Assembly: GCA_905234565.1 (NCBI GenBank)
Contig: CAJOHW010000015.1
Span: forward strand, 35,806-70,640
Source: an uncultured Oscillibacter sp.
Lineage (GTDB): Bacteria > Bacillota > Clostridia > Oscillospirales > Oscillospiraceae
Reading direction: 5' to 3'
DNA length: 34,835 nucleotides
The translations under genes were made by a program, and so were the position numbers. Positions 12,625 through 15,223 of this stretch are shown one piece after another (position 1 is the first letter of the stretch; each line of letters opens with the position of its first letter). The notes beneath the pieces were generated by a model. That model worked only from the letters and a program-made list of their open reading frames with translations. It did no database searches and was not told where the DNA came from.

Positions 12625-13485
12625 TTAAAACTCCAAATACTCCGTGCCCGCCTCCGGGGACAGGTACACCAGATCCTCCGCCGGGGACGGTTCCTGCGCT
12701 TCCAGGCCCAGGGTTTCCAACACCGTGCCGCCGTTTAAGCCCGTCTGCTGGCGCAGATTGTGGGCCGCCGCGTAGGCAGGGTCGTACTCCCACACCGCGT
12801 TCATCAGTGCGGCGGGACGGACCGCCCCCGAGGCCCGGATGGCCGGGTGCCCCTTCCACAGCTCAAAAATGGCCAGACACCCGGTGCGCTCCGGGAAATA
12901 GAGATAGCCGTATGTAGTGTGAATGCCGCACAGCCGGTCCAAGTCCATCTGGCGGCCCTTTTTCACCACGTAGTCCGAAAGCTCCACGGACCACACCGGA
13001 TAGCACACCGCGATCCCCCGCTCACAGCGGTGGGTCTCCAACAGGAACACCCCCCGGTCCAGGGCGGTATAGCGGAGGGTAAAGCCCATAGGCGTGACAT
13101 TGGGCACGGTGTAGTCCCCGAAGTACTCCGGCAGCTGTTCCATGCCAAAGACGGACATCTCGTGCAGGTCCTCTCCCGGGGACAGGGGCAGATTGTGGAC
13201 CATCCGATAGCGCAGAACCTCATAGCGGACAGCCAGATACCCGTTGGAGGACCCCTCAATGGCGTAGGCCAGGAATTCGGGATGGTGGGGCAGGGGTTCG
13301 CCAAAGGCTTTGGCTTGACGGGACAGGCAGGGGGTGTGGGCGGAAGCGGCGTAGAACTCCCGGGCGATGGGGCTTCCCTCCCGGCGGGTGGTGAAGTAGT
13401 AGACCCCGGGGCACAGTTCCTCCTCATCCAGGATCTCCCCCATATCGTCCTCGATCTCATAGGGAAACTTTTTCTCTGGATCCAT
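12625..13485 (-). CDS. Unrecognised 286-aa protein behind a structured leader
   Basis: I do not recognise the family. The product has no signal peptide or membrane helix and looks like a cytosolic mixed alpha/beta protein: an acidic N-terminus (YEIEDDMGEILDEEE), then regions rich in aromatic residues (CPGVYYFTTRREG, FLAYAIEGSSNGYLAVRYE, GIAVCYPVWSVELSDYVV, CGIHTTYGYLYFPERTGCL) and a low-complexity acidic tail. The ATG follows AGGAGG by 11 bases. An intrinsic terminator sits about 20 bp upstream of this start, after a long folded leader, so expression is probably set by transcription attenuation. Monocistronic. Confidence 0.85.
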   Translation of the reverse strand: MDPEKKFPYEIEDDMGEILDEEELCPGVYYFTTRREGSPIAREFYAASAHTPCLSRQAKAFGEPLPHHPEFLAYAIEGSSNGYLAVRYEVLRYRMVHNLPLSPGEDLHEMSVFGMEQLPEYFGDYTVPNVTPMGFTLRYTALDRGVFLLETHRCERGIAVCYPVWSVELSDYVVKKGRQMDLDRLCGIHTTYGYLYFPERTGCLAIFELWKGHPAIRASGAVRPAALMNAVWEYDPAYAAAHNLRQQTGLNGGTVLETLGLEAQEPSPAEDLVYLSPEAGTEYLEF

Positions 13486-13505
13486 GGTATCACGCGCCTC
13501 CTGAA

Positions 13506-13535
13506 TAAAAAAAGTGCGCAGCCGGAGCCGCGCAC
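13506..13535 (-). terminator. Leader terminator just upstream of the ribosome site of the 286-aa protein gene
   Basis: On the minus strand GTGCGCGGC, loop TCCG, GCTGCGCAC, then seven Ts (13513-13507). AGGAGG follows within five bases and the ATG lies at 13485. An intrinsic terminator placed here would block the gene unless prevented from forming. Confidence 0.85.
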
Positions 13536-13680
13536 CGAAAAACGCTTCCCCGTTTGCACCACACAAACTTTAGCACTCCCAAAGGAAAGACTAAATTCGG
13601 AAAAGCATTTTTACCGAAAGCTTTTCCTTCCTTTGAGAGGCAAACTAATCCCCGGTTTGTGCTATGAAGTTTGTGTGGTT
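13536..13680 (-). ncRNA. Candidate cis-regulatory leader RNA (three-way junction plus terminator)
   Basis: The leader folds, by hand pairing, into an outer stem P1 (13679-13667 with 13570-13558, 13 bp, extended after a 2-nt bulge by TAGCAC 13664-13659 with GTGCTA 13576-13571), a small hairpin P2 (CAAAC, 9-nt loop, GTTTG), and a long arm P3 (CTCAAAGGAA with TTTCCTTTGGGAG, then GGAAAAGC 13627-13620 with GCTTTTCC 13606-13599). The terminator at 13506-13535 follows. It lacks the T-box consensus and I could not match it to a riboswitch class. Alternative: a transposon-like palindrome. Confidence 0.6.
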
Positions 13681-13686
13681 GAGTTT

Positions 13687-13715
13687 ATCCTATCATAACG
13701 CATCTAAAAAAGCAA
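13687..13715 (-). promoter_or_regulatory. Possible promoter of the structured leader
   Basis: TTGCTT (13715-13710), 17-bp spacer, TAGGAT (13692-13687) on the minus strand. Transcription would begin at the base of stem P1. TATGAT nearby is an alternative -10. Confidence 0.45.
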
Positions 13716-13743
13716 GGGGCAATTCGACATTATTTTGCCCGTC

Positions 13744-13778
13744 GGCCACACCCGCCCCCCAGGGGGGCGGGTGTGGCC
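13744..13778 (-). terminator. GC-rich hairpin after cysS, probable 3' end
   Basis: GGCCACACCCGCCCC pairs exactly with GGGGCGGGTGTGGCC across a short loop. It begins 12 bp after the cysS stop but has no T-run on the minus strand, so it is either an unusual terminator or a 3'-end stabiliser. With the leader RNA and promoter it accounts for the 304-bp gap 13486-13789. Confidence 0.6.
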
Positions 13779-13789
13779 CTCAAAAAGTT

Positions 13790-15223
13790 TTACACCCGTT
13801 TCCACACCGCGCCGCCGGGCACATCCGTCACCTCAATGCCCTGGGATCGCAGTTCCTCCCGGATCCGGTCCGCCTCCTGGAAGTCTTTCGCCTGTTTCGC
13901 CTCGTACCGCCGCAGCAGCAGGGCGTCCACGGCATCGTCCCCCTCCCCGGTGATGGTATAGGCCCCGTGCTGCTGGCTCTGGGCGGTCTCCCGGAGGGCG
14001 GCGGAGCGGTCCAGCAGGGCGAGCCCCAGCACCTGGTCCAGATCCGACAGCACCGCCAGCTTCGTGGCGTCATTGGCCTTGGCCCGGAGGGCGTCATAGA
14101 GCAGCGTGACGCCGGAGGCAGTGTTCAGGTCGTTGCCCACCTGCCGGAGGAACTTCTCGTGGAACTCCGCCGTCACCGCGGAATCCACCTCTCCGCCCTC
14201 CTGTAAAGTGGAGATCTTTTTCAGCAGTTTCCGATAGGCACCCTGGGCGTTGCCTAAGTTCTCCCATGTGAAGGAGAGAGCCTTGCGGTAGTGGCTTTGG
14301 AGGCAGAAGAACCGGTAGGCAAGGGGATCGTAGCCCTTTTCTTCCAGCAGGGACACCGTCAGAAATTCCCCGGAGGATTTGCTCATCTTCCCCTGCTCCG
14401 TGTTCAGATGGGCCACATGGAACCACCAGGGGCACCAGGGATGCCCCAGATAGCTCTCGGACTGGGCGATCTCGTTGGTGTGGTGGGGGAAGGCGTTGTC
14501 CACGCCGCCGCAGTGCAGGTCCAGATACTCCCCGTTGTATTTGAGGGAGATGCCCGTGCATTCGATGTGCCAGCCGGGATAGCCCTCTCCCCAGGGGGAG
14601 TCCCATTTCAGGGCCTGGTCCTCAAACTTGGACTTCGTGAACCACAGGACAAAGTCGTTCTGACTGCGCTTGTTGGCGTCCTCCTCCACGCCCTCCCGGA
14701 CCCCCACAGCTAAGTCCTCTTTCTCATGGGCGTTGAACACATAGTACCGGGGGAGTTTGGAGGTGTCGAAATACACGTTGCCGCCGGCAAAATAGGCGTA
14801 ACCCGTGTCCATGAGTTTGGTGATGATTTTGAGGTACTGGTCAATGCACCCGGTGGCGGGCTGGACCACGTCGGGGCGCTTGATGTTCAGCTTGCGGCAG
14901 TCCTCAAAGAAGGCGTCCGTGTAGAACTGGGCGATTTCCAGCACGCCTTTATGCTCCCGCTTGGCCCCCAGGAGCATTTTGTCCTCCCCCTCGTCGGCGT
15001 CGGAGGCCAGGTGCCCCACATCCGTGATGTTCATGACCCGCCGGACGCTGTACCCGCTCCAACGGAGGAAGCGCTCTAAGACATCCTCGCAGAGGTAGCT
15101 GCGCAGGTTCCCGATGTGGGCGAAATGGTAGACCGTAGGCCCGCAGGTGTACATTTCCACGTGTCCGGGGGTGTGGGTGGTGAACTCCGCCTTCTTGTGG
15201 GTGGCTGAATTGTAAAGGAACAT
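13790..15223 (-). CDS. cysS: Cysteinyl-tRNA synthetase
   Basis: Class I aminoacyl-tRNA synthetase charging tRNA-Cys. The 477-aa protein has the first zinc ligand in MYTCGPTVY (C27), the HIGH-type motif HIGN at 36-39, zinc-site sequences GWHIECTGIS and FPHHTNEIAQSE, and KMSKS near residue 280, followed by the helical anticodon-binding end (QEADRIREELRSQGIEV). Length is normal. The start follows GGAGGAG by six bases. It lies 64 bp after cysE and shares its T-box, so both respond to uncharged tRNA-Cys: more synthetase and more precursor are made when cysteine runs short. Confidence 0.97.
   Translation of the reverse strand: MFLYNSATHKKAEFTTHTPGHVEMYTCGPTVYHFAHIGNLRSYLCEDVLERFLRWSGYSVRRVMNITDVGHLASDADEGEDKMLLGAKREHKGVLEIAQFYTDAFFEDCRKLNIKRPDVVQPATGCIDQYLKIITKLMDTGYAYFAGGNVYFDTSKLPRYYVFNAHEKEDLAVGVREGVEEDANKRSQNDFVLWFTKSKFEDQALKWDSPWGEGYPGWHIECTGISLKYNGEYLDLHCGGVDNAFPHHTNEIAQSESYLGHPWCPWWFHVAHLNTEQGKMSKSSGEFLTVSLLEEKGYDPLAYRFFCLQSHYRKALSFTWENLGNAQGAYRKLLKKISTLQEGGEVDSAVTAEFHEKFLRQVGNDLNTASGVTLLYDALRAKANDATKLAVLSDLDQVLGLALLDRSAALRETAQSQQHGAYTITGEGDDAVDALLLRRYEAKQAKDFQEADRIREELRSQGIEVTDVPGGAVWKRV

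Follow-up and report, generated by a model that had tools for sequence, protein, structure and literature searches.

A recurrent leader RNA with mutually exclusive pseudoknot and antiterminator helices, probably a transcription attenuator of a new class

A 34,835-nucleotide stretch of DNA from an uncultured Oscillibacter species (contig CAJOHW010000015.1 of assembly GCA_905234565.1; hereafter the window) carries a leader RNA with its own terminator, which spans 13715-13505 on the minus strand and ends at the ribosome site of a gene for a 286-amino-acid protein. We propose that this leader very probably belongs to a family of cis-acting transcription attenuators that extends across an order and is undescribed, and the sequences assembled here make a new class of attenuator the most likely identity of the family. 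Comparison of the copies demonstrates covariation of an outer stem (P1), a long pseudoknot, an antiterminator and a terminator, as well as a consistent place before genes. A first-pass annotation, made from the letters of the window alone, had proposed a candidate undescribed attenuator leader; the order-wide recurrence of the RNA, its position mostly directly before co-directional genes and its covarying, mutually exclusive antiterminator and pseudoknot all support that proposal.

Recurrence of the leader RNA

BLAST searches of 86 genomes of the same genus returned partial matches to the leader at three other loci, none of which precedes a relative of the 286-residue protein's gene and two of which precede similar lipoprotein genes. 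A covariance model built from the window and these three loci (R1) gave 10 matches at E <= 2.2e-5 in 9 of the 86 genus genomes, reached 22 of the 86 when weaker matches up to E <= 1 were included, and at E <= 0.01 matched 90 of 400 family genomes in 41 of 106 genera. At least 120 stretches in the species genomes of bacteria and archaea contained an exact pattern of the 3' part of the RNA. The 80 matches listed come from uncultured or metagenome-assembled genome (MAG) records, mostly with gut or rumen names, and the record titles among them include Clostridia, Clostridiales, Clostridiaceae, Oscillospiraceae, Ruminococcaceae, Ruminococcus, Ruminiclostridium, Firmicutes and Bacillota. Because these 80 loci were retrieved through their post-P1 strand and terminator, conservation of those letters among them is built in; R1 recovered all 80, with 88 matches.

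The 88 matches and 38 earlier copies, minus five that were cut off or partial, make up a set of 121 copies, which is not dereplicated (L107 and L189 appear identical). Sixty-four of the 121 were picked by hand for an alignment, A6. Outside it stand 35 long-type copies and 22 short ones. The short ones include truncated and similar copies as well as L076 and L078, two divergent copies covered by the per-copy pairing analysis only. A second model, R2, was built from 64 copies and at E <= 0.001 matched 143 of 394 genomes sampled from the leader's order, in 74 of 168 genera; in a phylum-wide sample it matched 1 of 398 genomes, namely the leader's own. From the record titles of the 80 listed pattern matches, the order carrying the family would be Oscillospirales. 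The wide searches scored seven candidates per genome, so absences and copy numbers are lower bounds; deeper scoring of 30 genomes picked for having matches gave 1 to 16 copies each.

In its own genome the window leader is single, both by DNA search, which at its limit of E = 1 gave one extra match of 18 bases (E = 0.71), and by R2, with 150 of 210 candidates scored. The leader is therefore not a high-copy repeat there. Phages or plasmids as the main home of the family were rejected: the exact 3' pattern found nothing in viral contigs, and one relative used as a DNA query had no plasmid match and matched only 2 of 50,697 phage records, each of which is an unverified virome scaffold. On the unverified virome scaffold L284 (MT837627.1, 1165-4870) an integrase-like gene is followed by the RNA and then by zinc-ribbon-like and lipoprotein-like genes, all named from reading their translations; the integrase-like neighbour suggests that the RNA unit may travel on integrative elements too. 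The phage-collection record L285 (MT835845.1) holds the RNA before a lipoprotein-like gene among other genes that read as bacterial, and is probably mislabelled chromosomal DNA.

No Rfam class accounts for the leader. Rfam 15 applied to the whole window gave scores at the gathering level to two transfer RNAs (tRNAs) at 33.7-33.9 kb and to nothing else, a permissive search of 13380-13800 returned only matches below the gathering scores of their families, and at 21 further loci (3 + 18) no family covers the leader RNA. The first-pass annotation had recognized neither a T-box consensus nor a known riboswitch class, and had set an Rfam match to a known class beforehand as a possible refutation; none appeared. 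T-box identity was rejected, as the T-box covariance model had no match in the window, the leader or the 21 other loci. So was 6S RNA, which resembles the leader in being a hairpin-like RNA of about 170 nt with its own promoter; the leader, in contrast, carries a terminator switch, and the genome's 6S match (RF00013, above cut-off) lies at another locus. Known riboswitches coexist with this RNA, as judged from an Rfam THF riboswitch at 503-607 of L107, a contig that also holds a copy.

Covarying and mutually exclusive helices

All window coordinates below refer to features on the minus strand. The outer stem P1 comprises 13 base pairs in the window, 13679-13667 (5' strand ACCACACAAACUU) with 13570-13558, and covaries across the 64 aligned relatives: 93.2% paired, two-sided changes in 9 of 12 pairs, and a covariation score of 0.361 versus 0.151 after shuffling. 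Enclosed by P1 is the P2 arm with its apical hairpin (13577-13664), in which a long stem, 13638-13625 with 13590-13577, is tipped in the family by a hairpin with a conserved GGUAAAAAyGC strand. The order 3' of P1 is GCAA, a strand of the type CGGAGCUnUGCGUUUUU, the terminator and a U run. The window terminator is a hairpin of 10 pairs with a UCCG loop (13536-13513) and seven Ts (13513-13507), followed after four bases by the ribosome binding site AGGAGG (13502-13497). The outer stem, the small hairpin, the long arm, the UCCG-loop terminator and the adjoining ribosome site had all been picked out in the first-pass annotation, and each is present. Taken alone, the terminator is unremarkable (1 found versus 0.6 expected), whereas the leader as a whole folds at -78.3 kcal/mol versus -49.5 +/- 4.4 in 200 dinucleotide shuffles (z -6.6).

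The strand after P1 is complementary to two sites, the apical strand and the 5' half and loop of the terminator. In the window, the apical switch strand AAAAAUGCUUUUCC (13612-13599), which is partly paired in the local apical hairpin, forms 14 continuous pairs with the post-P1 strand GGGGAAGCGUUUUU (13551-13538), giving a pseudoknot of which it is the 5' strand. The antiterminator (13552-13523) instead joins 13552-13548 with 13527-13523 and 13545-13543 with 13532-13530. Pseudoknot and antiterminator are mutually exclusive, and the antiterminator also excludes the terminator.

Both helices show compensatory changes in the 64 copies. For the pseudoknot, 92.9% of cells are paired versus 90.5% in shuffles, 7 of 15 pairs have two-sided changes, two-sided cells number 47 versus 11.4, and the score is 0.220 versus 0.172. 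The corresponding values for the antiterminator are 92.6% versus 91.3%, 6 of 12 pairs, 25 versus 12.2 cells, and 0.244 versus 0.216; its pairing percentage and its two-sided cells were each reached by none of 500 shuffles. Sliding the partners by 1-3 columns lowered pairing to 21-63% for the helices overall, to 35-63% for the pseudoknot and to 35-58% for the antiterminator. Divergent copies such as L076 and L077 keep the pseudoknot with different letters, and in L074, L107, L115 and L076 an altered terminator loop is accompanied by a matching change in the post-P1 strand.

Per-copy comparisons gave the same picture for 114 of the 121 copies, those that passed a filter on P1 energy and on length after P1 (seven failed). 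The post-P1 strand pairs better with its own apical strand than with the average of foreign ones (mean energy -18.05 versus -15.41; own better in 104 of 114), and better with its own terminator strand as well (-15.06 versus -13.29; 90 of 114). Terminator pairs are 98.4% conserved in the 64 relatives, and terminator and antiterminator are close to balance, with means of -17.0 and -15.4 kcal/mol; the antiterminator is the lowest-energy fold of the region in 70 of 114 copies. By base-pair probabilities, the apical strand is paired locally at a mean of 0.58, and at 0.5 or more in 83 of 114 copies; A6 gave no usable count for the local hairpin P3 (56.6% paired), whose 5' strand is misaligned in it. 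Among 14 upstream copies of tandem arrays, compared with shuffles that preserve base composition only, the pseudoknot fell in the best 2% in 13 and the antiterminator in the best 5% in eight.

Near-invariance among unpaired bases outside the switch strands is limited to a few, namely A and UA after P1, GGU ahead of the apical A run, and GCAA after P1. These are natural candidates for a putative binding site. Two size groups make up the 121 copies, one of up to 178 nt (86 copies, among them a partial 112-nt match) and one of 186-233 nt (35 copies). Members of the long subtype, for example L077, L122 and L132, have an extra part inside P1, and those found by pattern carry a nearly invariant CGGAGUUUGCGUUUUU strand.

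Promoters, arrays and the genes behind the RNA

The RNA is preceded by a promoter at fixed spacing. With the first base of P1 as +1, promoter columns align in 119 copies, a -35 element at -35 and an extended -10, TGnTATAAT, at -15 to -7; key bases are mostly 80-92% conserved, and the first three bases of the -35 element are T in 92%, T in 87% and G in 70%. The window promoter is offset from this frame by one base. Its -35 element TTGCTT (13715-13710) lines up with the family columns and is separated by 17 nt from the -10 element TAGGAT (13692-13687), which is preceded by an extended -10 TG. Judged alone it is weak, with 7 of 12 consensus bases and no report from a promoter scan, yet the promoter-like pair of the first-pass annotation is present, and its -10 is conserved in the family. 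Transcription would be expected to start at the first base of P1 or one base earlier. Upstream, a near-perfect, G+C-rich palindrome of 35 bases (13778-13744) directly follows a gene that we take, from its translation, to encode a cysteinyl-tRNA synthetase; the palindrome is probably that gene's terminator, setting the leader apart from it.

A promoter of this kind was seen by eye before 25 of 27 copies in 12 arrays, four-copy and three-copy arrays included; the two copies without one, in L181 and in L140, have a poor P1 as well. Four complete promoter-RNA-terminator units stand directly before one gene in L277 (G1140:C60), and three in L278 (G997:C48). In L279 (G1196:C42) a third promoter and a P1-like start follow two modelled copies, which resemble a divergent subtype and do not have the usual U run before the terminator. 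When post-P1 strands were paired with the apical strands of 11 arrays, the own strand was better in 15 of 25 cases and a sister strand in four, with six ties (mean energy -17.3 own versus -14.5 sister). This preference suggests that the pseudoknot is mainly intramolecular, as far as sequence tells.

Genes mostly begin soon after the RNA. At least 300 nt of downstream sequence was available for 112 copies, of which 106 were not followed by another copy and had a candidate reading frame. A start codon lay within 40 nt of the terminator in 66 of the 106 and within 100 nt in 88 (median 28), and 75 of these 88 had a ribosome-site-like sequence; the score used to pick the start codon rewards length, proximity and a ribosome site, and some of its picks are wrong (L106). 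The longest frame was co-directional in 82 of 104 cases downstream and in 52 of 99 upstream. Near starts and a co-directional bias confined to the downstream side favour action on the adjacent gene. Two general traits of an attenuator are found in the family, an intrinsic terminator just before a co-directional gene (within 100 nt in 88 of 106 copies, the window's among them) and a conserved antiterminator that excludes it.

The genes behind the RNA differ and belong to no single family. Eighty-seven of the 106 downstream proteins passed an added rule on distance, length and ribosome site; by a simple rule 24 of them are lipoprotein-like, 26 have another hydrophobic N-terminus and 37 have neither. 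Under one common filter, lipoprotein-like or hydrophobic N-termini occurred in 25 of 37 targets versus 51 of 222 neighbouring frames, and lipoprotein-like ones in 15 of 37 versus 8 of 222; these targets are drawn from L122-L201 only, and the N-terminus rule is a heuristic rather than a trained predictor. Among 25 of the 38 Pfam families of the 87 proteins, BspA-type repeats occur in 14 proteins, S-layer homology in four and zinc ribbons in two, and cohesin, AMP-binding, VanZ, YpsA/SLOG and helix-turn-helix are among the singletons. Two small uncharacterized proteins of about 60-75 residues, cysteine-rich (L106 read by eye), recur behind the RNA on separate contigs, one in L156, L177 and L197 and the other in L106, L132 and L188.

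The gene behind the window leader (13485-12625, ATG at 13485) had been described as having no assignable function, and a search of Pfam and NCBIfam with its 286-residue product indeed gave no match at E <= 1. Its predicted structure is unusable (mean predicted local distance difference test, pLDDT, 33). Relatives occur in 10 of 86 genus genomes, its own included, and a few of the larger genomes give as many as six matches, fragments among them (L003-L025); a scan of genome contigs with the protein's peptides confirmed no relative.

Proposed mechanism and competing explanations

In the mechanism that we propose, RNA polymerase would start at the base of P1 and make the P1-closed arm, after which the post-P1 strand (GGGGAAGCGUUUUU in the window) would have two exclusive partners. 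Pairing with the apical strand AAAAAUGCUUUUCC would form the long pseudoknot and leave the terminator free, so that transcription would stop after about 170 nt and the gene would be off. Were the apical strand kept in its local hairpin, the post-P1 strand would take the 5' half and loop of the terminator, form the antiterminator and turn the gene on. Some cellular signal, a ligand, a protein or another, would select the state. The use of these states as a switch, the pseudoknot as its OFF position and a signal that chooses between them are what we infer from the pairing patterns. The RNA would then work like a riboswitch or a protein-responsive attenuator whose antiterminator can be disarmed by a pseudoknot.

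Known systems share parts of this outline. Transcription-terminating riboswitches likewise combine a terminator, an antiterminator and an upstream folded domain that decides between them by pairing, and also control scattered single genes. The leader family differs from them in matching no Rfam class, in having a long pseudoknot between the arm interior and the pre-terminator strand as its deciding helix, and in its fixed promoter-P1 spacing and tandem promoter-to-terminator units. T-box leaders also combine terminator and antiterminator in Firmicutes, but here there is no Rfam T-box match and no tRNA-charging enzyme in the 25 of 38 Pfam families of downstream proteins. Leaders of type III toxin-antitoxin systems (ToxIN, named in PMC8040213) have the same order of promoter, structured RNA, terminator and gene; in contrast, no short tandem repeats are seen by eye in the window RNA, and no ToxN in those 25 of 38 families. 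The microbiome survey PMC8040213 itself reports thousands of candidate structured RNAs from human microbiomes; like the leader family, its candidates include predicted RNAs directly upstream of genes, among them those of Clostridiales. Its main text contains none of the terms ruminococc, oscillo and lipoprotein, and overlap with an unnamed candidate of its supplementary tables is possible. No description of the family was found in the titles and abstract openings searched, PMC11109978 and PMC8632094 included, with subscription papers, preprints and supplements outside this search. The class of mechanism is known; nothing in this literature appears to describe the RNA family itself, the platform controlled by its pseudoknot, its fixed promoter or the set of genes behind it.

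Several observations weigh against a cis-acting attenuator. The shuffle and own-versus-foreign tests ignore shared descent, and the gain in paired cells over shuffles is small (92.9 versus 90.5% for the pseudoknot, 92.6 versus 91.3% for the antiterminator). In the window's own copy the lowest-energy fold is the terminator (-18.0 versus -15.1 for the antiterminator), and its antiterminator has only eight pairs, with an internal loop. Six of the 14 upstream tandem copies, including all three tested copies of one genome, have antiterminators outside the best 5% of shuffles, and the antiterminator is weaker in the long subtype; accordingly, not every copy may have one. A plain leader would not usually occur in tandem copies that each carry a promoter, and near-invariant unpaired bases outside the switch strands are scarce for a putative small-molecule site. 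Finally, the RNA was found upstream of relatives of the 286-residue protein at 0 of 23 other loci, some of which are fragments of one gene and two of which (L011, L022) start inside the gene, with the upstream region outside. The first-pass expectation that the fold would be tied to orthologues of this gene thus failed, yet the attenuator idea stands because the RNA sits before many different genes elsewhere.

A special case of the attenuator is a strict riboswitch, in which one state is stabilized by a small molecule or ion bound to P1/P2 and to the conserved unpaired bases. We place this just short of even: the near-invariant A-UA, GGU and GCAA, the nearly balanced expression platform and the scattered gene set all suit it, whereas the invariant bases are few and the genes seen show no metabolic theme, only a bias toward surface proteins. 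An alternative would be a family of stand-alone, trans-acting small RNAs, each with promoter, structured RNA and terminator, from which downstream genes merely gain by read-through. The fixed-spacing promoters, in tandem copies too, the presence of as many as 16 copies in one genome and of arrays with up to four members, and the antiterminators that do not exceed shuffles in some tandem copies are what such a family might look like. It nevertheless seems improbable, given start codons at a median of 28 nt past the terminator, a co-directional bias on the downstream side only, an antiterminator that extends into the terminator loop, needless for such an RNA, and the preference for the own apical strand in 15 of 25 array copies, which points to intramolecular pairing.

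The remaining two explanations can be given very little weight. A leader-peptide attenuator, in which ribosomes stalled on a short upstream frame govern the terminator, would share the antiterminator/terminator outline, but a frame of at least six codons with a ribosome-site-like sequence is present in only 9 of 114 copies, and a transcript starting at P1, as expected, would leave no room for a frame before it. A repeat or mobile palindrome that regulates nothing is about as hard to credit. Occurrence at unrelated loci, and once next to an integrase-like gene on an unverified virome scaffold, is in its favour; a single copy in the window's genome, compensatory changes in exclusive helices, positions near gene starts and a one-query plasmid search without a match are not.

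The cis-acting attenuator that we favour has a bolder form, which we advance only tentatively and judge less likely than not. In it, the RNA would be a portable promoter-plus-riboswitch cassette across a whole gut and rumen order, present in as many as 16 copies in a genome and in arrays with up to four members. It would couple a cellular signal to a regulon of scattered genes for surface lipoproteins, proteins with BspA-type repeats and uncharacterized proteins; the long pseudoknot would represent a novel type of expression platform, and RNA would be sensing a ligand that it is not yet known to sense. That the promoter is fixed and that whole units stand in tandem raises the question of why promoter and attenuator travel together. 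If the attenuator reading is true, over one third of the sampled genomes of the order (143 of 394) would carry a regulatory RNA that has had no name, and this RNA would offer an entry point to how numerous surface proteins are regulated in bacteria not easily manipulated.
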